Made by a program: the position numbers and the translations under genes. Shown here in pieces: positions 14,265-44,520 of a stretch of 64,000 nucleotides of DNA (positions within the stretch are counted from its first letter, which is position 1; each line of letters begins with the position of its first letter). The stretch spans positions 3,162,001-3,226,000 of the forward strand of contig NZ_CP073315.1 of the NCBI RefSeq assembly GCF_018140925.1, read 5' to 3'. The notes below the pieces were generated by a model. The model did no database searches. It was not told the origin of the DNA and saw only the letters and a program-made list of their open reading frames with translations. The DNA is from Psychrobacillus sp. INOP01 (GTDB taxonomy: Bacteria; Bacillota; Bacilli; Bacillales_A; Planococcaceae).

Positions 14265-14385
14265 ATCCGTTTCGCAAGTTAATGGCTTTGGAAAGCAAGT
14301 AACCAGTGAATGAGAGCTAGTATTTAGCAGAAAAGTGCAAGTAAATGTCCTCCGAACGCAAGTAACGTGTTCAAAGACAAGAGTT
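14265..14385 (+). repeat. Degenerate 21-bp-period array, GCAAGTAA core
   Basis: The core GCAAGT(T/A)A starts at 14274, 14295, 14316 (as GCTAGTAT), 14337 and 14358, that is at exactly 21-bp steps; only the core is conserved between units. The array lies after the DUF457 terminator. The rest of the 14204-14626 gap holds no supported gene. Confidence 0.75.
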
Positions 14386-14626
14386 AACTCTGATTGAGAA
14401 ATAAATTTAGCGATAGTAACGCTCTTGTATAAGCACCAATCTTTCTCGTATAACAACCGGCAGAATAAAATTACCTTATAATAGTAAACTATCATTATAG
14501 AATCCGAGATTAAGTATGTACACATTTAAGTTGTGATAATGATCAGAAAATTGCATTATATAATTGACGATATAGTAATAGAAATGGGATAGTTAGGGAA
14601 GATGAATGATTAAGGGGGATGTAATT

Positions 14627-15520
14627 ATGAAAAAAGCATTGGTGTTAGGTGGTACTAGATTTTTTGGGGTGCAGCTAGTGGAGTCTTTATTGAAACAGGG
14701 ATTTGATGTAACAATTGCCTCACGAGGGAATCTGGTGGATCCGTTTAGAGACAAAGTGAGTCGAGTAAAGGTCGACAGGTTAGATGTAGGCGATATGCAA
14801 AAGAATTTTGTAGATACGGAATGGGATATCGTATTTGATCAAATATGCTATTCCTCTCAGGAAGCAATAGATTCAATAGACGTGTTTACTGGGAAAACGA
14901 AAAAGTATGTATTTACATCTTCTAAATCTGTCTATGAACAAGCTGGTGGAGATAAAGGATTTACTGAAGAGGATTTCAATCCATTTGAATACAAGTTAAA
15001 TGTAGGACCAAAGGAAAACTTTTCCTATGGTGAGGGTAAAAGACAAGCTGAAGCAGCATTTTTCCAACGCTCATCTTTTCCAGTCGTAGCAGTAAGGTTT
15101 CCAATCGTAATTGGACTTAATGATTATACAGAAAGACTAAATTATTATATTCGAAAAGTAAGAGATCAAGAGGATGTGCATTTCGTCAACTTAGATGCCG
15201 CTATGGATTTTATATCAGAGGAGGAGGCTGGCGATTTCTTAGCATGGATTGGTCAATCTGATTTTGAGGGGCCAATTAATGCGACATCCAATGGACATGT
15301 AAAAATGGGAGAGTTGCTTGAATATATAGAAGAAAAAGTTGGGAAGTCTGCGAAAGTGGTTGCCACGACGGAGAAAGAGAGCGGATCACCATACAATATT
15401 TCAGAGACTTGGCTGATCAGCAATGAAAAAGCAAAGGCACATGGATATGAATTCGAAAATTTGAAGGAGTATTTGCCAGGGCTAATAAGTGATGCATTAG
15501 CTAAAATGAATGAAAAATAG
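14627..15520 (+). CDS. NAD(P)-dependent epimerase/dehydratase-like protein (atypical SDR)
   Basis: 297 aa from the ATG at 14627, which has AAGGGGGAT before it; an earlier in-frame ATG at 14606 does not. The Rossmann nucleotide site is at the N-terminus (ALVLGGTRFFGVQLVESLL). The later SDR elements are YVFTSSKSVYE, the Y-x3-K-like SYGEGKRQAE and VRFPIVIG. This is the pattern of the atypical-SDR group often annotated as NAD-dependent epimerase or CSP41/isoflavone-reductase-like. The substrate cannot be deduced. It appears monocistronic. Confidence 0.82.
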   Translation: MKKALVLGGTRFFGVQLVESLLKQGFDVTIASRGNLVDPFRDKVSRVKVDRLDVGDMQKNFVDTEWDIVFDQICYSSQEAIDSIDVFTGKTKKYVFTSSKSVYEQAGGDKGFTEEDFNPFEYKLNVGPKENFSYGEGKRQAEAAFFQRSSFPVVAVRFPIVIGLNDYTERLNYYIRKVRDQEDVHFVNLDAAMDFISEEEAGDFLAWIGQSDFEGPINATSNGHVKMGELLEYIEEKVGKSAKVVATTEKESGSPYNISETWLISNEKAKAHGYEFENLKEYLPGLISDALAKMNEK

Positions 15521-15636
15521 GCTTGAATACACAACGATTAGTTGCATTAGTCCAATTTACTAGGTTGAAATTATGCTCTCTTAGGAAAGCATATACTTAC
15601 TATATAAATAGGTAGTTTTAGGGGGATTGTTCAAAG

Positions 15637-16353
15637 TTGAGAGCTATTATTGGGGTTTCGTCAAATATAAAAGAGGATTTGTTGTCAGTTCCGATGAGTA
15701 ATGTACATGCAATCACACAGTTCGGAGGAATTCCGATTGTGCTGCCAAATTTAGTTGGAGATGGAATTGAAGAGATTGCAGCGACAATTGATGGTCTATT
15801 ATTAACTGGTGGTGGGGATATTGACCCGACCTTGTTTGGTGAAGAGCCACTACCGGGATTGGGTAATATTGTGCCAGAGCGAGATCTGTTTGAAGTGGCA
15901 CTTATTCAAAAGATGTTGGAGTTGAATAAGCCAATTCTAGGGATTTGTCGTGGTGTCCAGATTATGAGTATTGCGATGGGTGGGGATATGTATCAGGATA
16001 TTTATTCGCAAAAAGATGGGCTATTATTACAGCATGATCAGCAGGCTCCAAATTGGCATGGCTCTCATTTTATAGAAGTGACAGAAGGATCATTGTTACG
16101 CAAAATTGTTGGGGTGGATAAATTTAAGGTGAATAGCTATCATCATCAAGCGCTGCGAAATATGCCAGTTGGTTTTATCGTAAGCGGTATTGCAAGTGAT
16201 GGCGTAATAGAATCCTTTGAAAGCACAGAGCATTCATTTGTTATGGGTGTTCAGTGGCATCCCGAGAGCCTAATAAGTAAACGTGATGCTAGTTCGCTCG
16301 CGATATTTGAGGCGTTTATAAATGCGTGTAAGACAAAAGGTTATACAGCGTAA
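15637..16353 (+). CDS. Gamma-glutamyl-gamma-aminobutyrate hydrolase-like class I amidotransferase (peptidase C26)
   Basis: A 238-aa stand-alone glutamine-amidotransferase-fold hydrolase. The nucleophile is Cys104 in GICRGVQIM, and the His-Glu of the triad lie in QWHPES near the C-terminus. The LTGGGDIDPTLFGEEP segment is typical of the PuuD/C26 group, which cleaves gamma-glutamyl amides such as gamma-glutamyl-GABA. The start is TTG with AGGGGGA upstream. A paralogue is encoded at 57188. Confidence 0.88.
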   Translation: MRAIIGVSSNIKEDLLSVPMSNVHAITQFGGIPIVLPNLVGDGIEEIAATIDGLLLTGGGDIDPTLFGEEPLPGLGNIVPERDLFEVALIQKMLELNKPILGICRGVQIMSIAMGGDMYQDIYSQKDGLLLQHDQQAPNWHGSHFIEVTEGSLLRKIVGVDKFKVNSYHHQALRNMPVGFIVSGIASDGVIESFESTEHSFVMGVQWHPESLISKRDASSLAIFEAFINACKTKGYTA

Positions 16354-16392
16354 ACTTTTGCTGATTTTAAATGATTGTAGTGAATTTTTAAG

Positions 16393-16420
16393 ACGACTGT
16401 TTTTAGAGCAGTCGTTTTTA
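16393..16420 (+). terminator. Terminator after the C26 amidase gene
   Basis: A 7-bp stem ACGACTG / CAGTCGT followed by TTTTTATTATT. Confidence 0.75.
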
Positions 16421-16508
16421 TTATTCTCTTTTTTAATATAAAAATGTAATTCATGAAATATTTTTTCTGGGGCAAGCTATTTGCATCATGAATAAGGAGG
16501 TATTGGCT

Positions 16509-17519
16509 TTGATAAGCTGGCTGAGGCGAGGATGTTCTGTTTTTGTGCTTTCTTTTTTGATCTCAACTAGTGTTTCGGCAGCGGAGGAGAAACCGACCCG
16601 GGAACAGACTTTGGAAATGCGCATGGATTACTATGTAAAATATTCGAGTGAGATGCTACCGTGGTATTACTTGGCAGCAATTGACCAATACGAACGAAAT
16701 TTGCAAGAGGTTCGAAGTGATCTTCCAAAACGAGATGGAGTTGTGGCGTTTCAATTTTCAGCTGACTTTTGGGTTGGTTTATTGAATCCGATAAGGGATG
16801 ATCGGAATAGCACCTCAATCACTTTCTTTGATGGTAGAGGACTTGATGGAAATAATGATGGTTTCGCTGATCTTAAACAAGATGATGACGTAATGTTCAC
16901 GCTAACTAATTATTTGAATGAACGCATCGTAACAGAAGAGGATTTTGAAAAAACTCTGAAGGAATATTACGCTCGGGATGAAGCGGTTAAGCAGATCATG
17001 ACGAATGCTAAAATATATAAGCATTATAATACGGTGGACCTTGATGGACGTGCATTTCCACTGGCACTACAGCATAATTACAGTTACCGTAGTACTTGGG
17101 GTGACAGACGCGGCTGGGGTGGGCGACGTATGCATGAAGGGACCGATTTGTTCGCTTCCTATGGTGTACCGGTGAAGTCGACAACTTATGGCATTGTCGA
17201 GACAAAGGGCTGGAACGATTACGGTGGTTGGCGCGTAGGAATTCGTGATGTTAATAATACCTATCACTACTACGCCCATTTATCAGGTTATACGAAGGAG
17301 TTAAAAGAAGGTGATTTTTTGGAACCAGGAACCGTCATCGGCTACGTTGGTAGTTCGGGTTATGGTCGCCAGGGAACCTCGGGAAAATTCCCGCCACATC
17401 TGCACTACGGAATGTATAAATTTAACGGTCGGACAGAATGGGCTTACGACCCTTTTCCATTATTAAAGCGTTGGGAGCAGCAGGAAAAGAGTGCTAAAAA
17501 GAATCCAGCAGCAAGTTAG
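16509..17519 (+). CDS. Secreted M23 peptidase, LytH-like
   Basis: 336 aa from a TTG at 16509, placed 8 nt after an ideal AAGGAGG that lies inside the longer ATG-started frame (16488). The new N-terminus MISWLRRG plus a hydrophobic stretch ending SVSAAEE is a standard signal peptide. A helical middle region is followed by the LytM/M23 domain with zinc ligands H and D in RRMHEGTDLFASYG and the HxH in HLHYGMYK. Length and layout resemble B. subtilis LytH, the sporulation L-Ala-D-Glu endopeptidase, so a cortex-maturation role is a reasonable guess. A gene-end repeat begins at the stop codon. Confidence 0.85.
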   Translation: MISWLRRGCSVFVLSFLISTSVSAAEEKPTREQTLEMRMDYYVKYSSEMLPWYYLAAIDQYERNLQEVRSDLPKRDGVVAFQFSADFWVGLLNPIRDDRNSTSITFFDGRGLDGNNDGFADLKQDDDVMFTLTNYLNERIVTEEDFEKTLKEYYARDEAVKQIMTNAKIYKHYNTVDLDGRAFPLALQHNYSYRSTWGDRRGWGGRRMHEGTDLFASYGVPVKSTTYGIVETKGWNDYGGWRVGIRDVNNTYHYYAHLSGYTKELKEGDFLEPGTVIGYVGSSGYGRQGTSGKFPPHLHYGMYKFNGRTEWAYDPFPLLKRWEQQEKSAKKNPAAS

Positions 17520-17696
17520 TTGCTGGATTTACATACAAAAAAAGTGAAACTTCAATCAATGGGGGGTCTTTATCTCCCACTTATACTTTGTTACTTGGGT
17601 CAAGCCTTGATAGGAGTCTTACGACGTACAGGATGTACTAGTGCCGATGTTGCCACAGGACGTGGCGACTTAAATCGGCCTGCCCGTTAATGTGGG
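17520..17696 (-). repeat. Gene-end palindromic repeat, copy 1
   Basis: Read from the stop of the LytH-like gene: AAAGTGAAACTTCAATCAATGGGGGG, an inner region, then TGCCCGTTAATGTGGGATTAATGC. The same ends occur, in the other orientation, at 50245-50378 and 62325-62480. The last codons and stop of the convergent gene at 17687 lie inside it. Confidence 0.7.
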
Positions 17697-18022
17697 ATTA
17701 ATGCAAGAGTTAGCCAAAAAAAGTGAAGTATCAGAACGATTACATAGAGGAAAATTGCTACATTTAACAAGATCAATATAAATGGTCTCGATTCTATTTT
17801 AGACACAATACCGATTAATAAAACAGGAAGAGCGATTTTTATAATATAAAAGCCTGTGACGTTAGCTTCATATATACTACGCATAATCGGATTAGCTTCT
17901 GTAATATGATGATTCTGAATGCCAAAATCAGTAAATAGAGCATCGAGAGTGGCAAGTATTAATAGGATAATCCCCATTTTGATTAGCTTATTTCGAGGCA
18001 ATGTGAAAGAAATAGATAGCAA
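17687..18022 (-). CDS. DUF5658-like small membrane protein
   Basis: About 111 aa from a TTG at 18022, chosen because AAAGGAG lies before it; the longer reading uses a TTG at 18043 that precedes this ribosome site. It has three or four membrane segments. The family hallmark is the acidic start of the second segment followed by ITEANPIMRSIY, as in DUF5658 proteins, where an E-x-NP-x-M motif sits in the membrane. Function unknown. Its C-terminal residues (LIPH) and stop are supplied by the gene-end repeat shared with other loci. Confidence 0.75.
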   Translation of the reverse strand: MLSISFTLPRNKLIKMGIILLILATLDALFTDFGIQNHHITEANPIMRSIYEANVTGFYIIKIALPVLLIGIVSKIESRPFILILLNVAIFLYVIVLILHFFWLTLALIPH

Positions 18023-18131
18023 AAGAAAGTGAACTCCTTTCAAGTTTTCTATTAGTATGTGATGGAAGGGGCAGATTCTATTCTTGATTTACAAAAAAAT
18101 AGATTACAATAGAACTAGGTAAGGAAAGGAT

Positions 18132-18797
18132 GTGCCAAAATTGAGAGATATTCCATTTGTATGTTCTTGGAGTGGTGGGAAGGATTCTGCAATGGCCTAT
18201 TATCGGGCAATGAAAATGGGAATGAGACCGAAAAAGTTACTGACCATGTTTGAAGAGGAAGGAGAGATTTCTAAATCCCATGCACTACCCCTTGAAGTTG
18301 TGACAGCTCAGGCAAAACATTTAGGAGTGCCATTATCAATAAAGGAAGCAAGCTGGAATTCCTATGAGGGACAATTTATAGAGGCAATGGACGAATGTGA
18401 TGCGGAAGGGATTACGCATGGTGTATTTGGAGATATTGATCTTGAGGGTCACTTAGAATGGGTACAAAATACCTGTGCAAAATCGAATATCGTTGCGGTG
18501 CATCCGTTATGGAAGGAGCCTCGACTCAAGATTATTGAGGAGTTGTTAGACGTAGGCTTTGAGGCATGGATTGTAGTTGTGAATACAACGATGATGCCTG
18601 CCGAATTTATTGGGAGAAAGTTTTCAAAAGAATTAATAGTAGAATTAGAAGCCCTAGAAATCGATGCTTGCGGAGAAAATGGAGAATTTCATACGGTTGT
18701 AGTGGACGGTCCAATTTTTTCAAAAAGGGTTCCTGTAAAAATTGGACATGCTATCGTAAGAGGTGACTATGTTTTCTCACCGGTATCTATTGCATGA
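18132..18797 (+). CDS. Dph6/MJ0570-like ATP-pyrophosphatase (diphthine-ammonia ligase family)
   Basis: A 221-aa protein of the adenine-nucleotide alpha-hydrolase fold. The PP-loop CSWSGGKDSAMAYYRA is at residues 11-26, and later blocks GITHGVFGDIDLEGHLEW and ENGEFHTVVVDGP are characteristic of the Dph6/MJ0570 family. Eukaryotic Dph6 amidates diphthine in elongation factor 2; bacteria lack diphthamide, so the bacterial homologues must act on another carboxylate or in a salvage reaction not defined here. The start is GTG after AAGGAAAGGAT. Confidence 0.87.
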   Translation: MPKLRDIPFVCSWSGGKDSAMAYYRAMKMGMRPKKLLTMFEEEGEISKSHALPLEVVTAQAKHLGVPLSIKEASWNSYEGQFIEAMDECDAEGITHGVFGDIDLEGHLEWVQNTCAKSNIVAVHPLWKEPRLKIIEELLDVGFEAWIVVVNTTMMPAEFIGRKFSKELIVELEALEIDACGENGEFHTVVVDGPIFSKRVPVKIGHAIVRGDYVFSPVSIA

Positions 18798-18886
18798 AAA
18801 AAGTTTAGTTCATTTTGATTATTAATACTGTAAAAGGGTATCGTAAAAAAGAAAATACATAAATTTTGAAATGGTGGAGAATACAA

Positions 18887-19351
18887 ATGACGAAAATGAA
18901 TAGAGGAATTATAACTGCACTTTCGGCAATTGGGCTAGCGCAAGGCTTAAAGGTATTAACACATAAAAAGCTAACGGGCGATTGGGATTTGAAGCAGGCA
19001 TTTACAACGGGTGGAATGCCAAGCTCTCACTCTGCGGGTGTCGCAGCATTGGCTTCGTACGTTGCTGCAAATAAAGGAACTCGTCATACAGAAACTGCCT
19101 TAGCAGTTGTTTTCGGGGCAATTGTTATGTATGACGCACAGGGAATTCGTAGACATACAGGTGAAATTGCACAATTAGTAAATGACTTGGAAGATAATAT
19201 TGTAGCACTTTCTGGAAATTTTCCTAGCTTTGAATACGTTCAACGAGAAGGCGAATTAAAGGAACTTCTTGGCCATCAACCGATAGAAGTAATGGCTGGT
19301 GCACTATTAGGAACTGCTTTTGGAGTATTATGCGCTAAATTGGAAGACTGA
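18887..19351 (+). CDS. Divergent PAP2 family membrane protein (DUF212)
   Basis: 154 aa from the ATG at 18887, seven bases after GGTGGAGA; the earlier in-frame ATG at 18866 lacks a site. The DUF212 signature GGMPSSHSAGVAALASYV lies near residue 45, followed by FGAIVMYDAQGIRRHTGEIA, which matches the PAP2-like active-site histidine pattern. It has several membrane segments. Members resemble lipid phosphatases, but the reaction is not established. It ends at a shared bidirectional terminator. Confidence 0.88.
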   Translation: MTKMNRGIITALSAIGLAQGLKVLTHKKLTGDWDLKQAFTTGGMPSSHSAGVAALASYVAANKGTRHTETALAVVFGAIVMYDAQGIRRHTGEIAQLVNDLEDNIVALSGNFPSFEYVQREGELKELLGHQPIEVMAGALLGTAFGVLCAKLED

Positions 19352-19364
19352 TCCATTCTTATTT

Positions 19365-19405
19365 AAAGCCAAGTTAGATAGGACATCTAACTTGGCTTTG
19401 TGTTG
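19365..19405. terminator. Bidirectional terminator
   Basis: A perfect 15-bp stem (AAAGCCAAGTTAGAT / ATCTAACTTGGCTTT) lies between the DUF212 gene and the convergent lipoprotein gene. T-rich tails occur in both directions. Confidence 0.85.
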
Positions 19406-19409
19406 TGTT

Positions 19410-19904
19410 TTATTGATTTTCGTCGGTATAAGTTTTAGTCTTTCCATCTTCATACTCGATTTTTAAATCAAACTTTGTGTACTCATCTACTTCGAATGCC
19501 GACGCTACTCTTTGGATTACTTCTTCATCACTCATATCCTTCATGGGCTGCAGTTCTACGAAAATTGGTTGAAGAAGTGCATAGGCAGCATCACCTTTTA
19601 AACTAGAGGCGGCATGCATATTAATATATACTGCTTCCTCTGTTTCGACATTGTACTGAGCCACTACAGAATCCGTGTTATCGGATGTATCGATGTGCAG
19701 GTCGAAGTTGGTGAATCCATATTCATTTTCGGGATTCTCATCTGTGAATGTCTCATCTACTGTATTATCCTCTTCTGGGTTTACGACAGTACCGTTGGGC
19801 ACATTTTCTTCTGGTTCGTCATTATTGTTGCCACCGCATGCTCCTAGAATTAGTGCAGAAGTTAATAATGTAGAGCTGAGTATTTTATATTTTGTAGTTT
19901 TCAT
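19410..19904 (-). CDS. YusW-like lipoprotein
   Basis: A 164-aa protein with a lipoprotein signal (LILGACGG; Cys23) followed by an acidic N/E/D/P-rich linker. The globular part FTNFDLHIDTSDNTDSVVAQYNVE ... FDLKIEYEDGKTKTYTDENQ fits the YusW-like family, small extracytoplasmic beta-rich proteins of unknown function. AAAGGAGT precedes the ATG. It is anchored to the outer face of the membrane. It is transcribed alone towards the DUF212 gene. Confidence 0.75.
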   Translation of the reverse strand: MKTTKYKILSSTLLTSALILGACGGNNNDEPEENVPNGTVVNPEEDNTVDETFTDENPENEYGFTNFDLHIDTSDNTDSVVAQYNVETEEAVYINMHAASSLKGDAAYALLQPIFVELQPMKDMSDEEVIQRVASAFEVDEYTKFDLKIEYEDGKTKTYTDENQ

Positions 19905-20101
19905 GTTGTTTACTCCTTTCGAGGCGTTAAAACCTTTAGTATATTAATAACCTAAAACATTCTTGATTAAACAAGCGTGTTTGGTTTAGTATATATTTAC
20001 AATAGTCAGAATCAATAAAAGCTGTTTGTGAAAAGAGGATTAGGTTTAGGGAAGTGTGGGTAAAAGAGTGTTAAGGTTATCATAAATAGGAGGATGATTG
20101 A

Positions 20102-20434
20102 ATGGTGAATTATACGGAAATTACGTCTGTGGATCAGTGGAAGGAAGTTTTGAAGCAGTCAAGTGAAAAACCAGTAGTGGTGTTCAAACATAGTACAACC
20201 TGTCCAGTAAGTGCTCATGCGTACGGAGAATTCAGTGCGTTTGAAAAACCGATGGATTGTTATTTGGTGAAGGTTATAGAGCACCGTCCTGTATCCAATG
20301 AAATATCAATTGACCTTGGAATTCAACATGAATCTCCTCAAGCATTTTTAATAGTGAATGGGAAAGCTAAGTGGAATGCATCGCACTGGAAAATTACAAA
20401 AAAGGAGTTAGATAAGGTAACAGCATCTTTATAA
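20102..20434 (+). CDS. ytxJ: Bacillithiol-system monothiol protein YtxJ/BrxC
   Basis: A 110-aa thioredoxin-fold protein with a single active-site cysteine, C34 in STTCPVSAHA, the typical TCPxS motif of YtxJ (BrxC). It is a monothiol bacilliredoxin-like protein of the bacillithiol thiol-redox system that removes bacillithiol from mixed disulfides. GGAGGATGA precedes the ATG. The RsbR-type gene follows after 23 bp, so the two are probably co-transcribed and stress-related. Confidence 0.9.
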   Translation: MVNYTEITSVDQWKEVLKQSSEKPVVVFKHSTTCPVSAHAYGEFSAFEKPMDCYLVKVIEHRPVSNEISIDLGIQHESPQAFLIVNGKAKWNASHWKITKKELDKVTASL

Positions 20435-20457
20435 AGAATGGGGATTGGAGCGAAGGA

Positions 20458-21276: not shown

Positions 21277-21295
21277 AATTTAGTTAATCCAATCC

Positions 21296-21321
21296 TCTAG
21301 TTGAGGCGTTGGATTTTTTTT
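21296..21321 (+). terminator. Terminator after the RsbR-like gene
   Basis: Interrupted stem AATCCAA-CCTC / GAGG-TTGGATT followed by eight T. Confidence 0.7.
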
Positions 21322-21405
21322 GTATTCCTGTTTAATTTTACTACATGGAGGGTAACTAAATTATGTGAACAACATGAATAAAGTTGAATAGAAGGAGGAG
21401 AGAGC

Positions 21406-23157: not shown

Positions 23158-23163
23158 AAAAGG

Positions 23164-23197
23164 CTCCAGCGAGAAATAACCTCGCTGGAGTTTTTTT
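23164..23197 (+). terminator. Rho-independent terminator
   Basis: Perfect 10-bp stem CTCCAGCGAG / CTCGCTGGAG followed by seven T. Confidence 0.93.
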
Positions 23198-23216: not shown

Positions 23217-23342
23217 AATCGACCGATTATCTATCTTATTCGACCGATTCTCCATGATTTTCAACCGATAAAATGACATATTCATCCGATTCTAAGTAGT
23301 TAACGACCGATTTTTAGCTTATTCGACCGATTCTAATTTTTG
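23217..23342 (+). repeat. Degenerate 21-bp-period array, TTCGACCGATT core
   Basis: Six copies of TCGACCGAT (or one- to two-base variants) start at 23219, 23240, 23261, 23282, 23303 and 23323, that is at steps of 21, 21, 21, 21 and 20 bp. The remaining bases of each unit vary. It lies between the channel-gene terminator and the acyl-CoA ligase gene. The rest of the gap to 23473 looks like an ordinary AT-rich promoter region. Confidence 0.85.
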
Positions 23343-26151: not shown

Positions 26152-26391
26152 ATGTATATAGAAATTACAGTAGATCTTTCTAAATACGATGGAAAAGTCT
26201 TAGATCTAAGACTTTCTGATTACTATACAATGAAAAAAATGATTGATATCGCCTGGCAGGCCAATTCTATTTCCAAAACTCCACGCGAAGGCCATTGGGT
26301 ACGCGTAGTGAATAAAGATAAAATATTCCCAGGACATTTGACGTTAGCCCATTGCGGGATAACGACTGGTGACCGAATTGAAATTATTTGA
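26152..26391 (+). CDS. yukD: Ubiquitin-like T7SS protein YukD/EsaB
   Basis: A 79-aa ubiquitin-fold protein: MYIEITVDLSKYDGKVLDLRLS at the start and the C-terminal LAHCGITTGDRIEII, which matches YukD/EsaB. It is a small cytoplasmic component that binds or regulates the membrane complex of type VIIb systems. GGGGTGAGAG precedes the ATG, and essB begins 13 bp after its stop. Confidence 0.93.
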   Translation: MYIEITVDLSKYDGKVLDLRLSDYYTMKKMIDIAWQANSISKTPREGHWVRVVNKDKIFPGHLTLAHCGITTGDRIEII

Positions 26392-26404
26392 AGGAGCTAC
26401 AAAG

Positions 26405-27811
26405 ATGGCCAAACGTTCACATACATACTTAAAAAACCGAATAGGTGCAGAAATAAATGAAGAACCGCTTAAAACTACTTTTGTCTTTCAAAAAGAGAGA
26501 GTAGGATTCAAGCGAACCGAAGAAATTATTTTTCTAAAGGAAGTTAATCCAAAAATAAAAAAAGACATAGTAATAACCGATGACGAGCTAATTATTCAAG
26601 CAGATATCCCAGCGTCCTTTAAGCGTTTTGATGTCATTCAATCAGAGGATGAAAAATCTCGTTGGATGTTTGCTTACCAACTGGTGGAAAAGGTTTATTC
26701 GCATCCATATCCTCGCTTAAATTTAATCGTGTCCCCGGAAAACATTGTGTATAGCCGAGGGATGGATCCTATTTTTCTTTATTATGGAGTGTTAGGGAGT
26801 TTACCGCCATTTGAAACAAATGATGAGCGCGTCTGGTTAGAAACAAAAGCCGTAGTTGCAGCAGCAATAGACGGCTCTTTCACATTTGAAGAGTATTTAA
26901 AGTATTCTGAGATTCTTGAACTAAAAGAAATGGGCGCTACCATTATGTCCATGAAAGAAAGTGACTCTTTACTGGACTTCATAAGTCAGCAAATGGAGCA
27001 ACTAGAAGTAAAAGAACTAGAAAATGTGAAGCTCCCTCGAAAAAAGTGGAAAGTTACCAAATGGCTATCGATTGGGCTAGCTGTACTTATCATTCCAGCA
27101 ATTATATTTACAATCATATATTTTGTACATGAAAAGCCAAAAACGAAAAGCTTTATAGATAGTCAAGCATCCTTCCTCGGTCAAAACTACAGCCAAGTAG
27201 TAACAACTTTAAGCCCTTATAGCGTTAAGTCCATGCCATATATTGTTCTTTACGAACTTGCGTACTCATCTGTTACCAACGAACGCTTGGATGAAGAGCA
27301 AAAAGAAAATGTGCTTTCTAATATTACATTGCAAACCGATGCAGATTATTTAAGATATTGGATTTATCTCGGTCGTGGAGAGGCGGAAAATGCTGTAGAT
27401 ATTGCAAGAGCAATGGAAGATGGCGAATTAATCACCTATGCTTTGTTGAAGTTAAGAGAAGAAGTGAAGGCAGATAGAGATTTAACTGGTGAAGAAATGC
27501 AAGAACAGCTAAATGAAATTGATCAAGAAGTAGAGGAATACGAAAAGTTAATGGAAGAAATGGAAGAAAAAGAACGACAAGAACAGGAAGAACAAGAGCA
27601 GCAAGAACTAGAAAAAGAACAACAGGAACAGCAAGAACTGGAACAAAAACAAAAAGAACAGCAAGAACTAGAACAAAAACAAAAAGAACAACAAGAGCTA
27701 GAAAAGAAGCAAAAGGAACAACAAGAAAAACAGCAGCAAGCAGATCAAACAAATCAAACAGATCAAACAGATCAAACAGATCAAACAGATCAAACAGATC
27801 AAACAAAGTAA
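26405..27811 (+). CDS. essB: T7SS membrane protein EssB/YukC with a repetitive tail
   Basis: 468 aa from the ATG at 26405 (AAGGAGC seven bases before); a longer frame from 26369 overlaps yukD and has no site. Residues 1 to about 215 are the cytoplasmic pseudokinase-like domain, one membrane segment follows (WLSIGLAVLIIPAIIFTIIYF), then an extracytoplasmic helical domain. The last ~85 residues are low complexity: E/Q/K-rich units of the KEQQELEQKQ type and then six Q-T-D repeats coded by 9-bp units (27743-27806). EssB bridges the complex subunits in the membrane. The tail is probably unstructured and prone to length change. Confidence 0.93.
   Translation: MAKRSHTYLKNRIGAEINEEPLKTTFVFQKERVGFKRTEEIIFLKEVNPKIKKDIVITDDELIIQADIPASFKRFDVIQSEDEKSRWMFAYQLVEKVYSHPYPRLNLIVSPENIVYSRGMDPIFLYYGVLGSLPPFETNDERVWLETKAVVAAAIDGSFTFEEYLKYSEILELKEMGATIMSMKESDSLLDFISQQMEQLEVKELENVKLPRKKWKVTKWLSIGLAVLIIPAIIFTIIYFVHEKPKTKSFIDSQASFLGQNYSQVVTTLSPYSVKSMPYIVLYELAYSSVTNERLDEEQKENVLSNITLQTDADYLRYWIYLGRGEAENAVDIARAMEDGELITYALLKLREEVKADRDLTGEEMQEQLNEIDQEVEEYEKLMEEMEEKERQEQEEQEQQELEKEQQEQQELEQKQKEQQELEQKQKEQQELEKKQKEQQEKQQQADQTNQTDQTDQTDQTDQTDQTK
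27743..27806 (+). repeat. 9-bp tandem repeat inside essB
   Basis: Six to seven in-frame units of ATCAAACAG (one with AAATCAAAC) encode the terminal DQT repeats of EssB. Slippage would change protein length by three residues per unit without frameshift. Confidence 0.9.
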
Positions 27812-35703: not shown

Positions 35704-35721
35704 AAAAGGGAGGGAATGTAT

Positions 35722-36081: not shown

Positions 36082-36102
36082 CTTGCAAGGGGGAGAAGCG
36101 TT

Positions 36103-37853: not shown

Positions 37854-37884
37854 TTAGGAGAGAATTCCAATAGAAAGAGATAGA

Positions 37885-38589: not shown

Positions 38590-38657
38590 TCGATTTATTT
38601 TGAGTAGTAGGTAGTTAGAGGAGAATTCTAATAGAAAAAGAGAAAGAAGGGAAAATA

Positions 38658-39452
38658 ATGATTCCAACATTTACAGTACAGGATATTTTTGTAATGATGC
38701 AAACGTTAAATACGAAAACTTTAATAGGCTTTTCTAATCCCTTCAAACACCTAACAAAGTATGAAATTGAAAAAGAATGGGAGAAAACCTATAAAAAACT
38801 TCATAAGCTTAATCTTATTGATTTAGTAGATAAGGATATTAAATTAGAAGAAAACTTTGGCAATGCCCTGTGGATCATGTCACGTACTAATATGGTTGTG
38901 GAGATAATAAAAGATGGAAATCAGAAAAGTTATTTTTACTTTAGTAAAGACCATGTAGTGGAATGTAAACAGAATTCAGTAGATGAATATACGATATATG
39001 TGCATGGAACCCCTGATCATGTATGGAATAATGTTATTTATCCTCGAATGCTTGTAGGTGTAGAAAGTCACTCTGTCGATATAGTTGAATCTATTTTTGT
39101 TCCAACTGCGGCATATAATGCTTGGGTAAAAGCTGGAGCAATAACAGATGTACAGAGCTTGGAAGACATCAATTCAAGAGAAAACTGGAACCGTATAAGT
39201 AGTCAATTGGATGCTGCGCTAAAAAGTATGATACATAATAATCGATTAATGGTATTTTTCAAAGAGGATGCCCATTGGGTTATCGAAGGTATGCATGTTT
39301 TGACATCTCCTAATAATAATTGGACATTCAAAATGATACAGAAGGACAATAAAGAACTATTAGAAGGAAAACAAAGTACAAATTTGGAGATTGTTTCGGA
39401 GATTTTAGAGGTTTTAGTAAGGATGCAGCATCAGAAAGTAACGATTAAATAA
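38658..39452 (+). CDS. EspG/EsaE-like (DUF5081-type) protein, candidate T7SS effector chaperone
   Basis: A 264-aa soluble protein without signal or membrane segment. Its opening, FTVQDIFVMMQTLNTKTLIGF, then EIEKEWEKTYKKLHKLNLIDLVDKDIKLEENFGNALWIMSRTNMVVEI, resembles EsaE/DUF5081 and mycobacterial EspG, which carry T7SS substrates to the ATPase. The later part, including HGTPDHVWNNVIYPRMLVGV, is beta/alpha mixed. AGAAGGG precedes the ATG. Its leader (GTTAGAGGAGAATTCTAATAG) is nearly the same as that before the immunity gene at 37885. The last 17 codons are repeated at 40690. The family match is from memory of the layout and remains moderate. Confidence 0.5.
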   Translation: MIPTFTVQDIFVMMQTLNTKTLIGFSNPFKHLTKYEIEKEWEKTYKKLHKLNLIDLVDKDIKLEENFGNALWIMSRTNMVVEIIKDGNQKSYFYFSKDHVVECKQNSVDEYTIYVHGTPDHVWNNVIYPRMLVGVESHSVDIVESIFVPTAAYNAWVKAGAITDVQSLEDINSRENWNRISSQLDAALKSMIHNNRLMVFFKEDAHWVIEGMHVLTSPNNNWTFKMIQKDNKELLEGKQSTNLEIVSEILEVLVRMQHQKVTIK

Positions 39453-39571
39453 ATGAAAGTAGGAACATCAAGCACTTTTTTCGTATATTCGAATAGAGTG
39501 CTTGATGTATGTAAAATAGTATTTCTTATGTATTTTCAATGAAGTATTTTTACTGTTAAGCTTTCCAATTG
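39412..39571 (+). repeat. 160-bp direct repeat, copy 1
   Basis: Covers the 3' end of the EsaE-like gene, a convergent hairpin and the 3' end of a minus-strand gene. Copy 2 is at 40690-40849, offset 1278 bp with no gaps and about five differences. Confidence 0.95.
39465..39508. terminator. Convergent hairpin (copy 1)
   Basis: Perfect 12-bp arms ACATCAAGCACT / AGTGCTTGATGT with inner T- and A-rich loop, just after the EsaE-like stop. The same hairpin recurs at 40743. Confidence 0.7.
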
Positions 39572-39598
39572 TAATAGGTTATCCATTTCTTCGAAGGA
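39536..39598 (-). pseudogene. 3' remnant of a copy of the small gene at 40814
   Basis: Reads EMDNLLQLESLTVKILH-stop on the minus strand, against NYTINLAQLESLNVKILH-stop in the intact gene. The rest of the gene is missing and an in-frame stop lies just upstream. It is left over from the duplication marked by the 160-bp repeats. Confidence 0.75.
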
Positions 39599-39663
39599 TT
39601 ACAGCATAATATTACAATGCTCCATGATTGATTTATACGTTCCAGTAAAAGGGGAGGGTGATA

Positions 39664-39762
39664 ATGATAATTTTAGAGAACCATCAACTTCAAAACGAAT
39701 TGTTATATAAACTTTATAACTTCCTCCCAGAGGAAACTGATATAGCTTTTTATATGAAGTAA
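39664..39762 (+). pseudogene. Short ORF with strong ribosome site, probable truncated immunity-type gene
   Basis: Thirty-two codons starting 3 nt after an excellent GGGGAGGGTGAT: MIILENHQLQNELLYKLYNFLPEE, then TDIAFYMK-stop. The amphipathic LYKLYNFLPEE opening looks like the N-terminus of a small cytoplasmic immunity protein such as YezG/DUF600, but the frame closes early and later open stretches are in other frames. Either a decayed gene or a short peptide; uncertain. Confidence 0.35.
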
Positions 39763-39881
39763 CATAGCATGACACTCTAAAAACTCCTGTTTTGTTCAGT
39801 TCAAAAGAACAAACTCTAACCACACATATGTGGAGAGAAACTTACGTGTTATTGGAAAAGTGATAATCTGGAAGGGTGAAA

Positions 39882-40640
39882 ATGATGTCTATTAAATATC
39901 AAGGAAAGCTACAAGTAGAGAAGAGAGAAATCGATAATGTTACTTTATCCTATTTAAGATTTCAAACACCCAAAGAGAATAAAGGAAATATTATTTGTTT
40001 CTTAACATTATTTTTATATTTTATTGGATTGTTTCCTATAATAGGAGAAACTTTCTCATTAACATTTTTTTTAGCCGCTTTTATCCCTACTGTTCTTATC
40101 TCAGTTTGGGCAATTATATATTTAATTGATCCCTATAGGTTCGAGAAGTCCTATTATTTATTTTTTGGCATATACGGTGTAGTAAATACGTATGTGTATT
40201 TCTTGTCTATTGTAAAGTTGCTATATATTGATATGAAGGTAGAAGGAATAATTCCTCTTATCCTTAGCCTATTATTATTCATTATATTATTAGTAGGTGT
40301 AAATTTATTAAATTTAAAAGCACTGTATTCAGGAACCTATCACAAATTACAAAATATGAGGAGTATTAATGTAGCTTGGGTATCTATTGGTGCACTAGGG
40401 TATATTTTAGGTCAGTTTTTACTATCATTTATTTATACTGACTCCGCTTTATATACTCTAATAATTGTATTAATTTCTTTGTTGTCATGTGTTACTGCTT
40501 ATTTTACTGTTTATATTCATCGTTATTATTTTAACGATAAGAACATGGAATTGGTAAAGCAGGTGTATCCAGACTTTGGATTACCAATGAGTGAGAGGAA
40601 CACAAAGAGCAGAAGGAAGAAAAAGAAAAAGAAAATGTAA
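39882..40640 (+). CDS. Polytopic membrane protein, candidate immunity protein (paralogue B)
   Basis: About 252 aa, six membrane segments and the basic tail RNTKSRRKKKKKKM; a close paralogue of the protein at 37885 along its full length, with a ~20-residue N-terminal extension (MSIKYQGKLQVEKREID). GAAGGGTGA lies before the two start candidates ATG 39879 and ATG 39882; 39876 is a third. It is flanked by 160-bp direct repeats, so it arose by segmental duplication. No second LXG toxin lies next to it, so it may protect against related toxins of neighbours (orphan immunity). Confidence 0.7.
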   Translation: MMSIKYQGKLQVEKREIDNVTLSYLRFQTPKENKGNIICFLTLFLYFIGLFPIIGETFSLTFFLAAFIPTVLISVWAIIYLIDPYRFEKSYYLFFGIYGVVNTYVYFLSIVKLLYIDMKVEGIIPLILSLLLFIILLVGVNLLNLKALYSGTYHKLQNMRSINVAWVSIGALGYILGQFLLSFIYTDSALYTLIIVLISLLSCVTAYFTVYIHRYYFNDKNMELVKQVYPDFGLPMSERNTKSRRKKKKKKM

Positions 40641-40689
40641 TCATTCTGTGGGTCGCGGGAGATTAACACTAATTCAGAGGTTTTAGGAA

Positions 40690-40849
40690 TTTTAGTAAGG
40701 ATGCAGCATCAGAAAGTAACGATTAAATAAATGAAAGTAGGAACATCAAGCACTTTTTTCGTATATTCGAATAGAGTGCTTGATGTATATAAAGTAGTAT
40801 TTCTTATGTATTTTCAATGAAGTATTTTTACATTTAAACTTTCCAATTG
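40690..40849 (+). repeat. 160-bp direct repeat, copy 2
   Basis: Begins with the last ~50 bp of an EsaE-like gene (ending QHQKVTIK-stop), but the rest of that gene is absent; then the convergent hairpin and the 3' end of the intact minus-strand gene at 40814. About 97% identical to copy 1. Confidence 0.95.
40743..40786. terminator. Convergent hairpin (copy 2)
   Basis: Same 12-bp arms as at 39465; it ends the small minus-strand gene. Confidence 0.7.
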
Positions 40850-41014
40850 CGCTAGGTTGATCGTATAATTGTTTTCGGTATCTACAAATAGCCCACCATT
40901 CACTTTATTCCTTTCAGCTGTTCGGATATCTGTATTCGTTTCGAATATCAGATTATGTCCACCTTTAAACTTTAGGTAAAATTTATACTTTTTCAATTCA
41001 CCAGCTTTACGCAA
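40814..41014 (-). CDS. Small hypothetical protein of the T7SS island
   Basis: 66 aa from a TTG at 41014, six to seven bases after a perfect AAAGGAGGG; the longer frame from 41044 has no site. The protein LRKAGELKKYKFYLKFKGG... is basic and predicted beta-rich, with no signal or membrane segment. The family is not recognised. A 3' remnant of a second copy is at 39536, so the gene belonged to the duplicated segment together with the immunity and EsaE-like genes. Confidence 0.6.
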   Translation of the reverse strand: MRKAGELKKYKFYLKFKGGHNLIFETNTDIRTAERNKVNGGLFVDTENNYTINLAQLESLNVKILH

Positions 41015-41216
41015 AGTTCTCCCTCCTTTAACGAAGTATATCACTCGTCCTGATAAAGGTTAATAGATAGAAAATAGTTTTATTGGGTATATAGTTTATG
41101 AGACTTAATGAGGAAGTCCTTCTTATAGAAATAAATTAGGCGATACGACTTAAGTAGTATATAATGAAGGGATGCTGAAAATACTGAATTAGAGAATATA
41201 AAGGAGTTTGAATCAT

Positions 41217-41654
41217 ATGGGAAACAAAACTATAAACAATGAATTACCAGAGAATTACGAGGAACTAAAGAAAGCAGCAAATCGGACTGCAAGTTGGAAA
41301 GCACGCTATGACGCTGTAGTTGAATTAGGTAAGTACAACCATAATCAAGTGAAAGACATTTTAAGAACACGCCTAGCAAATGATCCGGTTTATAAAGTAC
41401 AAGAGGCTGCTTTCCAAAGTTTATTAGATTTTGGGGAAGAAGCACAGTTACCGAAGCGTAAAAAGTTTGAATTAGTAAAAGGAGCAAACAAAGTGTTTGT
41501 TCGCGTTAAGAAAAGTTTACCTAAGGATCATACTTTTGAAGAATTTTTAACAAAATTAAAAAGAATGCGTATCGACGTTTATGATACGTATGAAGGTGAC
41601 AAAGGTGACGAATTTAAAACTTGGCTAGAAAAAGAATGGTCTAATTTAAAATAA
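41217..41654 (+). CDS. HEAT-repeat protein
   Basis: 145 aa from the ATG at 41217 (AAAGGAG ten bases before). Two or three helical HEAT-type repeats are visible: ASWKARYDAVVELGKYNHNQVKDILRTRL, then DPVYKVQEAAFQSLLDFGE. A C-terminal segment (FVRVKKSLPKDHTFEEFLTKLKRM) of another type follows. Such proteins usually act as protein-binding scaffolds; the partner is unknown. It is monocistronic with a clear terminator. Confidence 0.75.
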   Translation: MGNKTINNELPENYEELKKAANRTASWKARYDAVVELGKYNHNQVKDILRTRLANDPVYKVQEAAFQSLLDFGEEAQLPKRKKFELVKGANKVFVRVKKSLPKDHTFEEFLTKLKRMRIDVYDTYEGDKGDEFKTWLEKEWSNLK

Positions 41655-41664
41655 TTCATAGATA

Positions 41665-41697
41665 AAAAGCAATTGTCGTCATGGACAATTGCTTTTT
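41665..41697 (+). terminator. Rho-independent terminator
   Basis: Stem AAAAGCAATTGTC / GACAATTGCTTTT followed by TT, directly after the HEAT-repeat gene. Confidence 0.9.
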
Positions 41698-41784
41698 TGT
41701 TTTTAAAAAAAGAAAGTATATAAACATGTCCTTTGACCACTGGGTTCGTGGGACTTTAATAAAGGGATAGTACTGCTGATTTCC

Positions 41785-41897
41785 GTTTCGGGTGGACGCG
41801 TTCCGCAGGGTGAGTGATGAACCATCACCGACGCTCCGCGCTCGCCTGTGATGGTTCATCTGTCTCACTCATCCTGCCGGAGTCGCCACCTTTCACT
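41785..41897. repeat. GC-rich long hairpin element
   Basis: A near-palindrome of ~100 bp. The 13-bp perfect arms are GATGAACCATCAC (41816-41828) and GTGATGGTTCATC (41848-41860). They extend outwards through GCAGGGTGAGT / ACTCATCCTGC and GGTGG / CCACC. Its base composition is much richer in G+C than its surroundings. It has the look of a dispersed intergenic repeat that I associate with Bacillaceae/Planococcaceae. Confidence 0.8.
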
Positions 41898-42267
41898 ACA
41901 ACCAATTAGTTTGTAATACTCCACTATATGATTTAGTATAGCTTATCGCTTAGATGATAAGATTGGTCAAATTTTAGAGAGTAATCAAATTATTTGTAAT
42001 CGCTTTTGAATTAGAAATGCGATTATCCAATGATAGAGGAAGCAAGCAGATTTTCTTTTTCTTTTATACTAGTGGAAACATAAAGAAATAGTAAGTGTTT
42101 GACTCATAAAGAAGCGAAATAGCGAACGAAAATTGATCTTCGAGAGCTTACTCATTGAATAGGAAAGTAACTTTTCTCTAGTTATCCATAAACGCACTTA
42201 CCTGTTTCTAAGCGTTGTAGGGGAGCGACGGATAGACAAACGCCATAAGATTACCGAAAAAAAGGGT

Positions 42268-42303
42268 GCTGGTTGGTTTTGACGGACGTCACAACCAACC
42301 AGC
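42268..42303 (+). other. Hairpin within repeat copy A
   Basis: Perfect 11-bp arms GCTGGTTGGTT / AACCAACCAGC enclose the loop TTGACGGACGTCAC. The same GACGGACGTCAC loop is kept in copy B at about 48888-48899. Confidence 0.75.
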
Positions 42304-42431
42304 CTCTCAAAAAAATCATTCGGTTATAATATAGCAACTAGTCTATTCAAAGCCTATTGAAAACGGTAGAAACAGGTTTTGACCTTAAAGGACCGATCAT
42401 CTATTTGCCTTGTTTTTCTTATTAATTATGG

Positions 42432-42552
42432 TCTCTGGAGCAGCGGGAAACTTTTAAGTGTTGGTTAAGGGGAATTATGTGGTCGTTGGAAGTGTTAATG
42501 CGGTAGTTAAATAGAGGTAAGTGGTAGTTGGAATGATTTATGTGGTACCGAT
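42432..42552 (+). repeat. Degenerate 21-bp-period array, (A/T)GTGGTNGTT core
   Basis: Core words start at 42436 (TGGAGC), 42457 (AGTGTT), 42478 (TGTGGT), 42499 (TGCGGT), 42520 (AGTGGT) and 42541 (TGTGGT), each exactly 21 bp apart. The array lies upstream of the RocB-like gene. The remaining 42553-42807 is AT-rich with no gene. Confidence 0.75.
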
Positions 42553-42807
42553 ATTTCCGATGCTTTAACTTTCTATTTTCTGGAATAAATTATAAGTAGG
42601 TTAGAATACGAGCTATTATTACAAATTTATCAGTCAGACTTCTATTATGATCGACATATCTAGATAGAATCAACAATTAATTGATGTGAAGTAGTATAAT
42701 TAATAAGTTATATTAATAAAAATTCTAAATAGATTGACAGTTTATGGGTGAGCCCCTATATTTTAAATAGATAGTTAATAGGATGATGGGATTGGAGAGA
42801 AACAATT

Positions 42808-44403
42808 ATGAGTAAATTATGGGATACACCTGAGAAACTACGGGCTTTGTTATGCGAATTGGTTAGCTGGGATAGTATTACATTAACAGAGGGGGAGCGA
42901 GCATTTGCCCCTAAATTAGTACAGAAGCTTGGAGAATTACGTTATTTTCAAGATCATCCGAGCCTATTACAAATGCATGATGCGGGACTTGGTAGACAAG
43001 TAGTAACTGCCTTGTATAAACACCCAGAAGCGACAGAGACGATTGTGCTTATCAGCCATTTTGATACGGTTCAGACGGAGGAGTACGGTGTTTTGGAGCC
43101 GCTTGCTTATTTTCCTGAGGAGTTAACAAAAAAGTTAATGGAGAATCCAGAAGAATTGCCAGAAGGTGCTCGTACTGATTTGGAGACGGGTAAGTATTTG
43201 TTTGGACGCGGCACAATGGATATGAAGATGGGGCTTGCGTTACATATGCAGCTTATAGAAAAAGCAAGTGTCGAACAATGGCCAATCAATCTTATTTTGA
43301 CAACTGTTCCGGATGAAGAAGTCAATTCAGCTGGTATGCGTGCTGCAGTCACTCACCTAGTGCGTATTCGTGAAGAGTTCGGATTAACGTACAAGCTATT
43401 TTTAAATAGTGAGCCATCATTTTCTCAAAATCCTACTGACATTGCAGAATATATTTATACAGGTACAATCGGTAAAATCATGCCTGCAGCTTTGTTTTAC
43501 GGGAAGGAAACACATGTGGGAGAGCCTATGAAGGGTATGACTGCCAATTATATTGCATCCTTTTTAACGCAACGAATGGAGTGGAATACTCTATTCCGCG
43601 AGACGGATCTAGGAGAAAGTACGCCTCTGCCTGTTTCATTGCAGCAGAAGGACTTAAAACTGTCTTATTCTACTCAAACACCGTATCGTGCAGTTGCCTT
43701 ATATAATGTGTTTTTACTGAAGCGTACTGCTTCGGAAGTGATGAATTTGTTCGAGCAAGTTGCAGAAGAGGCAATGCATGCACTGAACGAAAATTATTCT
43801 ATGATTTGTGAGCGTGAGCAGGTAACGGGCGTAGGGGAGGTAAAAGTTATACGCTATGAAGAACTACTAGCATACGCAAATAAGAAATTAGGAACAGTCC
43901 AAGTAGAACAGCTTAAAAAACAAACACTGGAAAACGAGGAATGGGATGACCGAGAAAAATCGCTTCGTATTGTAGATGATCTAATGATCCAATGTCAGGA
44001 ATTAGCACCAGCAACAGTTATCCTTTTCGCGCCACCTTATTACCCAGCAGTTAACACTTCCAATGATCCATTGATTAGAGATGCGGTGAAATTGATGAAG
44101 CAATCAGGCTTATCGTTTAATAATAAAATTGATCAAATCCATTATTTCAATGGAATTTGCGATTTAAGTTATGTGAACTATGTGGACGAAGGTAAGGGAT
44201 GGACTGCTTTTGAAAATAATACACCAGTATGGGGAGACACCTACAATATTCCATTTAACGACATGGCGAAGTTAAAAGGACCTGTCCTGAATGTTGGACC
44301 ATTCGGTAAGGATGCTCATCAAAAAACGGAGCGACTTCATGTAGACAGTGCATTTGTAGAGATGCCAATAATGTTAGAAACATTGATTAAAAGTTTATAT
44401 TAA
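42808..44403 (+). CDS. RocB-like M20 family peptidase
   Basis: 531 aa, similar in length to B. subtilis RocB (arginine-utilisation protein). Metallopeptidase M20 motifs are clear: ISHFDTVQTEEYG and GRGTMDMKMGLALHMQ (metal ligands H and D), then TVPDEEVNSAGMRAA (catalytic and metal-binding E). The C-terminal half with YFNGICDLSYVNY and GPFGKDAHQKTERLH is typical of the RocB branch. The enzyme is thought to act on an amide or peptide in arginine/ornithine catabolism. The glutamate dehydrogenase gene follows, in keeping with a nitrogen-metabolism neighbourhood. GGAGAG precedes the ATG. Confidence 0.88.
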   Translation: MSKLWDTPEKLRALLCELVSWDSITLTEGERAFAPKLVQKLGELRYFQDHPSLLQMHDAGLGRQVVTALYKHPEATETIVLISHFDTVQTEEYGVLEPLAYFPEELTKKLMENPEELPEGARTDLETGKYLFGRGTMDMKMGLALHMQLIEKASVEQWPINLILTTVPDEEVNSAGMRAAVTHLVRIREEFGLTYKLFLNSEPSFSQNPTDIAEYIYTGTIGKIMPAALFYGKETHVGEPMKGMTANYIASFLTQRMEWNTLFRETDLGESTPLPVSLQQKDLKLSYSTQTPYRAVALYNVFLLKRTASEVMNLFEQVAEEAMHALNENYSMICEREQVTGVGEVKVIRYEELLAYANKKLGTVQVEQLKKQTLENEEWDDREKSLRIVDDLMIQCQELAPATVILFAPPYYPAVNTSNDPLIRDAVKLMKQSGLSFNNKIDQIHYFNGICDLSYVNYVDEGKGWTAFENNTPVWGDTYNIPFNDMAKLKGPVLNVGPFGKDAHQKTERLHVDSAFVEMPIMLETLIKSLY

Positions 44404-44415
44404 ATACATAGAACC

Positions 44416-44445
44416 AGACTTCCTAAAGTGGGAAGTCTTTCTTTG
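44416..44445 (+). terminator. Terminator after the RocB-like gene
   Basis: 8-bp stem AGACTTCC / GGAAGTCT followed by TTCTTTGTTTT. Confidence 0.8.
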
Positions 44446-44459
44446 TTTTACCGAAATGT

Positions 44460-44520
44460 CGATCACTTGCGTTAAAAAGGAATTTACTTGCTCGGAATGA
44501 TGACTTACTTTCGAGAGTAG
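44460..44520 (-). repeat. Short 21-bp-period array, inverse of the GCAAGT family
   Basis: ACTTGC at 44465, ACTTGC at 44486 and ACTTTC at 44507 are at exact 21-bp steps. Read on the minus strand the core is GCAAGT, the same as in the array at 14274. It lies between the RocB-like terminator and gdhA. Confidence 0.6.

Follow-up and report, generated by a model that had tools for sequence, protein, structure and literature searches.

Intergenic arrays of 21-bp direct repeats with several core motifs in Psychrobacillus sp. INOP01

The stretch of DNA considered here, called the window below, is the 64,000 nucleotides at bases 3162001-3226000 of the single 4.30-Mb contig of Psychrobacillus sp. INOP01. 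It contains four intergenic arrays, A1 to A4, in which a short core motif recurs in one orientation with a period of 21 bp while the remainder of each unit varies (Table 1). Related arrays, sorted below into core families F1 to F4, lie at many other places in the same genome, and arrays of the same period occur in most of the relatives sampled.

Arrays in the window

An earlier note on this DNA, made from its letters alone, had reported four arrays of 21-bp period. All four are present, with positions that agree within two bases, except that the copy it placed first in A3, at 42436, has no convincing core match. The note also counted four different core motifs; there are really three, because the core of A4 is the A1 core reversed, so that these two arrays share one family on opposite strands. 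Its placement of the arrays between genes of the same strand holds for all four, judged by the flanking pairs: YdjM and epimerase (A1), MS channel and AMP-binding (A2), HEAT-like and M20 peptidase (A3), and M20 peptidase and glutamate dehydrogenase (A4). The third core of A1 reads GCTAGTAT. A1, A2 and A4 lie past a terminator-like hairpin of the upstream gene, and the one upstream of A2 ends about 23 bp ahead of the first core.

Table 1. Repeat arrays and associated features in the window
Feature	Position	Strand	Cores (first base)	Basis
F1 5' leader TGGAATTTTTATCCGTTTC, start signature of A1	14255..14273	+		match to leader of 27 own-genome F1 arrays
A1, family F1 (GCAAGTAA), 5 units of 21 bp	14274..14378	+	14274, 14295, 14316, 14337, 14358	
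Hairpin and T-run, terminator-like, of gene upstream of A2	23164..23197	+		sequence inspection; kept in relatives
A2, family F2 (TATTCRACCGATT), 6 cores	23221..23332	+	RACCGATT at 23221, 23242, 23263, 23284, 23305, 23325 (steps 21, 21, 21, 21, 20)	orthologues in G078, G068, G004
A3, family F4 (AACCACCACATAA; + strand about TTATGTGGTNGTT), 5 units, outermost diverged	42458..42550	-	42458 (diverged), 42479, 42500, 42521, 42542	G117 orthologue
A4, family F1 on minus strand, 3 units	44463..44512	-	44465, 44486, 44507	longer G117 orthologue

A chance origin of A1, A2 and A3 was rejected, since their five-copy scores at lag 21 (0.51, 0.58 and 0.58) exceed the highest value, 0.48, from 100 block-wise dinucleotide shuffles of the window. 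With three copies, A4 alone is not significant against these shuffles; its support comes from its core, which is the A1 core reversed, and from a longer array at the orthologous place in the related genome G117. A strict test, in which an identical 6-mer must occur three times at a fixed lag, detects only A2 within the window. A1 is overlapped by a mechanically called open reading frame (ORF) of 104 amino acids (aa) on the minus strand (14211-14525), which is read as spurious. A known RNA family was rejected as the identity of the arrays: the sole gathering-level Rfam match in the window, Bacillaceae-1 RNA (RF01690, 17625-17690 on the minus strand, 52.3 bits), lies elsewhere.

Period, cores and distribution

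The earlier note had proposed genome-wide autocorrelation at lag 21 as a check, and the excess is strong in this genome. The strict triple test covered 1.264 Mb, made up of the window and 60 stretches of 20 kb. It gave 25 intergenic triples at lag 21 and 11 at lag 42, which is the harmonic of 21, compared with 0-2 at each of the remaining lags from 8 to 60. Four of the stretches (L073, L077, L082 and L089), like many of those from relatives, were off-grid and mostly at known matches, so the totals are counts and not densities; minus these four, lag 21 has 18 triples and no lag besides 21 and 42 has more than two. Six further lag-21 places lie under short ORFs of 97-227 aa, equal in number to the 6 of 30 arrays under ORFs of that length, and these ORFs are read as produced by the arrays themselves. 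In 100 kb of E. coli, taken as a control, lags 21 and 27 each gave a single place.

Four core families account for 54 loci: F1 (GCAAGTAA) for 31, F4 (ACCACCACATAA) for 9, F3 (TATACGAGAGAG) for 8 and F2 (RACCGATT) for 6. This list comes from hand clustering of exact pair patterns; some F1 pairs in it are perhaps due to chance, and A3 is absent from it. Over the whole genome, exact 21-bp pairs occur at 69 places for GCAAGT (F1), 21 for ACGAGAG (F3), 22 for ACCACATA (F4) and 17 for RACCGAT (F2), and the corresponding backward patterns at 0, 1, 0 and 0. Further cores beyond the four families are also present. The constrained stretch runs to about 14-16 bp, past the 6-7 bases used for selection, with consensus GAnMGCAAGTAAAY, YTATACGAGAGAGA, YAACCACCACATAAAY and TATTCRACCGATTNT (96, 38, 40 and 27 distinct units, respectively); the units were chosen by an exact 6-7-base core, so those consensus columns could not vary. 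Apart from local duplicates, the spacers of one locus bear no evident resemblance to those of another, and spacers of F3 and F4 are less random than those of F1, partly from duplicated blocks. Directly ahead of the first F1 core stands a leader with majority consensus TGGnaAAAtaTtCCgTTcC, clearly unlike the inner units (27 leaders, 103 inner units).

The step from core to core is 21 bp, seldom 18-23. In chains limited to steps of 20-22 bp, it is 21 in 152 of 159 cases, 20 in six and 22 in one. With no limit set, the distance between adjacent cores has its peak at 21 bp in F1 (68), F3 (17) and F4 (35), and F4 also has distances of 19 (5) and 18 (2). Coding heptad repeats, decayed or living, would also have a period of 21 bp, or seven codons. 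The earlier note had given the decayed kind, along with a lack of 21-bp excess elsewhere, as grounds for refuting its claim, and both checks came out in favor of the note. Some frames are indeed open: A1 lies under the 104-aa ORF, 6 of 30 arrays lie under the short ORFs, and in named relatives some arrays lie under ORFs of 126-252 aa. Coding 21-bp repeats made of the same letters are also found in viral genes. The explanation is nonetheless barely credible: the frame is broken by steps of 19 and 20 bp and by 82- and 103-bp blocks, most frames of A1-A4 contain stops, the constraint is not codon-periodic, and arrays in four other genera have a period of 20 bp, most of them under no 100-aa ORF. 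The frame-breaking steps and the 20-bp arrays therefore indicate that two helical turns are kept and not seven codons.

A viral origin was also tried and rejected. The search for F1 pairs returned at least 120 viral stretches, a sample biased in that it was chosen by the 21-bp pair itself; among the 80 matches listed, 79 have one F1 pair and one has two. Of 50 lag-21 places in the viral stretches, 47 lie inside ORFs of at least 150 aa, the exceptions being in L385, L414 and L442. Such seven-codon repeats are a caution for any genome-wide scan at lag 21.

Among relatives, the closest match of one window protein was in Psychrobacillus sp. OK032, at 72% identity (the best of 80 loci kept, with the genome itself or very near ones possibly excluded). 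Eleven genomes of the family were scanned, with coding and intergenic places pooled. Lag 21 is the top lag between 15 and 31 in eight of them (G023, G078, G068, G117, G087, G031, G015 and G089) and is tied with lag 22 in G129, where the cases are a microsatellite and a weak one. It occurs once in G004, beside two places each at lags 18 and 30, and 100 kb of G123 has none. Pairs of GCAAGTAA occur in 13 of 151 genomes of the family and in 5 of its 19 genera. A triple occurs in 3 of 398 genomes of the class including this one, the other two being from one genus of another family.

Eighty named loci, fetched by way of an unrelated enzyme, gave seven places at lag 21, four at lag 20 and none at lags 19 and 22. 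Two of the lag-21 places (L121 and L160) are from non-Bacillales bacteria, inside ORFs of 267 and 441 aa, and are probably coding; L105, L128 and L131 are under no 100-aa ORF, and L106 and L122 are under ORFs of 126-127 aa. The lag-20 arrays belong to Ornithinibacillus, Lentibacillus, Sporosarcina and Piscibacillus, and three of the four are under no 100-aa ORF, the Lentibacillus array being under one of 132 aa. An Ornithinibacillus stretch holds more 20-bp arrays and also some with a 21-bp period, of which two are covered by a 252-aa ORF, and 20-kb stretches from Lentibacillus and Piscibacillus (L458 and L459) have no places at lag 20 or 21. In Bhargavaea sp. CC-171006 (L105:489-630), a 21-bp array has four units in one orientation followed by three in the opposite one.

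The A2 place allows orthologous arrays to be compared, and core is more conserved than spacer between them. This result is partly built in, since units were found by allowing up to two core mismatches, both here and in the L073 comparison below; units were matched between genomes in order. Six cores at 20-21 bp are present in INOP01 (G000), G078, G068 and G004. Core differences are 7/48 for G000-G078, 6/48 for G000-G068 and 5/48 for G078-G068, and the spacer differences are 33/76, 37/77 and 43/77. The G004 array carries RATCGATT in place of RACCGATT, with core differences of 12/48, 10/48 and 13/48 and spacer differences of 49/77, 47/77 and 47/78 to G000, G078 and G068, respectively. In L073, F1 arrays that are paralogous to each other show 1-5/48 differences in the core and 13-22/78 in the spacer.

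Cores also differ between species across whole genomes. G078 has 48 pairs of GMGAGTAA and none of GCAAGTAA; G000, G023 and G117 have 38, 202 and 74 pairs of GCAAGTAA and none of GMGAGTAA. Among 19 genomes (those unlisted have none), RACCGATT pairs number 58 in G104, 45 in G087, 19 in G068, 15 in G147, 11 in G000, 2 in G078 and 1 each in G004 and G123. The RATCGATT pairs number 15 in G004, 12 in G078, 10 in G141, 9 in G068, 3 in G111, 2 in G135 and 1 each in G000, G147 and G087.

Individual arrays come and go between species. A1 is absent in G023, and a 3-kb stretch (partly read) occupies its place in G004; at the A2 place, G023 and G117 have at most a one-core remnant. Among the relatives compared, clear A3 and A4 arrays occur only in G117, with a possible A4 remnant in G004. 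Near the expected place of A3, upstream of the M20 peptidase gene, G078 and G068 (L235 and L236) carry another intergenic sequence, longer and GC-richer, that resembles a dispersed repeat.

Location at gene ends and the nature of the arrays

Genes were called by a crude longest-ORF method, and ORFs shorter than 250 aa that overlapped arrays were removed ahead of the gap count; the finding of zero arrays inside ORFs is therefore partly by construction. When only gaps of 150 bp or more are counted, arrays are present in 12/79 convergent (15%), 20/268 codirectional (7.5%) and 1/77 divergent ones (1.3%), and convergent differ from divergent gaps at p=0.0023. These frequencies roughly track the number of gene 3' ends per gap (2:1:0). 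For 34 array clusters, the closest called start codon is 71 bp away, compared with gene ends as close as 11 bp.

The analysis shows the phase, the core families, the contrast of core and spacer, the difference in core between species and the location at 3' ends. Constrained cores between free spacers, a strict two-turn phase, a single orientation within an array, avoidance of promoters and a core that differs species-wide together argue that the arrays are likely rows of sites at which sequence-specific DNA-binding proteins would read one face of the helix. Each array would be a DNA-level element of about 3-10 sites in uniform orientation, with a spacing of 21 bp, or 20 bp in certain other genera, and putative proteins bound to it would lie on the same helix face and be able to touch their neighbors. 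Every core family would be read by a separate binder, or by one of several variants of a paralogous binder, and between species the core and its binder would shift in step. The resulting short nucleoprotein filament, between a terminator and the next promoter or between converging gene ends, could block read-through transcription or supercoiling from passing the gene ends. We infer binding and neighbor contact, and a boundary role at gene ends is a best guess from location; the full reading, a phased filament of putative binders acting as a boundary, seems to us evenly poised between right and wrong. A broader version, in which the arrays at gene 3' ends form a Bacillales class of transcription or topology insulators whose fast-evolving binders use several target dialects in each genome, with dialects that differ genome-wide from one sister species to another, is put forward more tentatively.

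If confirmed, this reading would add an undescribed layer of chromosome organization in intergenic gaps, with dozens of loci and several dialects per genome. It would also offer a set of DNA sites and binders that have evolved together in nature, allow bacterial insulators to be tested directly, and account for certain spurious short ORFs over repeats, among them the one at A1. No published description of these arrays was found in searches limited to open-access literature, and core strings searched as text gave nothing relevant by title among the papers listed.

Several results weigh against the boundary model. Several cores per genome need several binders. The preference for convergent over codirectional gaps reaches only p=0.046, and codirectional versus divergent gaps give p=0.056. 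For F1, F3 and F4 together, the G-rich strand carries the core at 38/48 loci (for F2, at 1/6), a bias that a symmetric boundary would not need, and the loci are clustered along the chromosome, with the densest bin at about 2.6-3.0 Mb, at neither skew switch (origin and terminus were placed from GC skew only). The number of arrays varies widely among species, with anything from 0 to 202 F1 pairs per genome among 17 genomes of one genus, and single arrays are not essential, because they come and go between species. The conservation of cores is inflated to some degree by the way units were chosen, and the split between GCAAGTAA and GMGAGTAA is unclean (2/4 pairs in G004, 40/1 in G068, 0/4 in G129 and 0/1 in G041). 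The different core at A2 in G004 may reflect replacement by a second family and not concerted mutation, because both F2-type cores coexist in G068 and G078. Finally, recurring core distances of 82 and 103 bp and a 186-bp block in G023 show that groups of units are duplicated in tandem, so that duplication also shapes the arrays. A separate case of repetition is seen at L078:8950-9987, where three minus-strand F1 arrays have similar sequence past the last unit and a longer, dispersed-looking repeat lies between them.

Known systems and rival explanations

The nearest known kinds are STAR elements in anatomy and parC/ParR in geometry, and the arrays fail defining features of both. In the excerpted account of PMC3532100, STAR elements of Staphylococcus are dispersed intergenic direct repeats with a conserved, GC-rich 14-bp motif, T(G/A/T)TGTTG(G/T)GGCCC(C/A), locus-specific spacers of at least 40 bp and a start signature, GTGGGACAGAAATGAT. 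Like these, the arrays are dispersed and intergenic, and their numbers and places vary by species. Unlike them, as far as that account goes, the arrays have cores of other sequence (GCAAGTAA, RACCGATT, TATACGAGAGAG and ACCACCACATAA) and a step far shorter than the STAR spacing, and the F1 leader, the only leader compared, differs from the STAR signature. Where STAR has one motif, the arrays also have several cores per genome that differ between sister species, and an association with 3' ends.

The strongest rival is a dispersed repeat like STAR, selfish or close to neutral, in which a copying machinery spreads leader and array to new intergenic places. The core would be kept since the machinery needs it, and gaps at 3' ends would be where insertion is tolerated. 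The range of F1 pair numbers within one genus, the turnover of array places, the tandemly duplicated blocks and a conserved start leader like that of STAR elements (PMC3532100, in the part used here) all point this way. However, no transposase or recombinase is among the 28 proteins at or near arrays that were scanned with Pfam (four of which had no hit), spacers of different loci seem unrelated outside local duplicates, the core constraint lasts at the old A2 locus despite strongly diverged spacers, and the exact two-turn phase is left unexplained; insertion footprints were judged by eye only. Such a repeat is a possible but doubtful account of the whole, and may be true in part: dispersal would explain the spread of the arrays, as binding explains their phase.

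A second rival, unlikely in our estimate, is that the arrays are chromosome-organizing or segregation sites whose filament serves the nucleoid, as ParR does on parC, and that promoters are avoided only to spare genes. In the portions of PMC9426499 and PMC5016525 drawn on here, parC is built of direct repeats in tandem, which measure 20 bp in pSK41, and ParR binds each of them to give a helical array; ParR/parC families have different repeats with matching binders. The geometry of the arrays, direct repeats that follow one another at about one or two turns of the helix, is like that of parC, and the G-rich-strand bias of F1, F3 and F4 and the clustering of loci would also fit. But parC in these sources is a plasmid site beside par genes, while the arrays make up 54 chromosomal loci with several cores and lie beside ordinary genes where inspected; no actin-like ATPase, ParR or other par-type gene is among the 28 scanned proteins (24 with hits). 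The densest bin is not at a skew switch, and the strand bias is confounded with gene direction.

The earlier note had suggested either phased sites for a DNA-binding protein of nucleoid or segregation type, or repeats under selection for phase. Selection on phase and core is supported; the DNA-binding protein and the nucleoid or segregation role are not shown, and the association with 3' ends fits a transcription boundary or a STAR-like repeat at least as well. Plasmid iterons, too, are directly repeated at roughly two helical turns and are contacted on one face by a Rep protein; unlike them, the arrays are present in many chromosomal copies, with no replication gene among the 28 proteins. The TAACTGA direct repeats of Beggiatoaceae, some Cyanobacteria and Bacteroidetes resemble the arrays as abundant, patchily distributed intergenic repeats of a short motif (PMC4679880). 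They differ, according to the section of that paper used here, in a 7-bp unit and in that, in the BOGUAY genome (Beggiatoaceae), most copies lie upstream of a start codon and within several nucleotides of it; the arrays have 21-bp spacing and lie away from start codons.

An RNA-level element, in which transcribed arrays would offer proteins or RNAs a row of binding sites, is quite improbable. In codirectional gaps the F1 and F4 cores tend to follow the direction of the neighboring genes (with versus against, 12:4 for F1 and 10:0 for F4), arrays are near gene 3' ends, and the folding of A1 is a little stronger than that of its shuffles (z -1.6 and -1.7). However, three of the four window arrays lie past a terminator-like hairpin of the upstream gene, A2 and A3 have no folding signal, and a spacing of 20 or 21 has no obvious meaning for single-stranded RNA. 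RNA structure as such was rejected, the z values for A1-A3 on both strands being -1.7 to +1.0. A CRISPR-like array, with the core as repeat, the 13-bp remainder as acquired spacer and the F1 leader as leader, would account for the constant unit length, unrelated spacers and 5' leader, but can practically be dismissed: some A2 spacers are alike between species in the same order, fitting divergence in place, bases beside the core are constrained too, the units are far too short, and no cas family is among the 28 scanned proteins.

Nearly all of these 28 proteins are array neighbors, and the Pfam hits found no common function among them; examples are enolase, S-layer proteins, aminotransferase, NERD proteins, glutamate dehydrogenase and one HTH-cupin regulator. 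The gene for this regulator (L073:4644-5207, minus strand) adjoins an F1 array; its product is DNA-binding, but nothing marks it as the binder. Two NERD-domain genes (L073:3143-4168 and 10224-11111) adjoin arrays of different families, F1 and F4. Within the window, a YukC-family secretion gene (26369-27811) has overlapping tandem repeats of 9, 15, 24 and 30 bp at its end (27550-27805).

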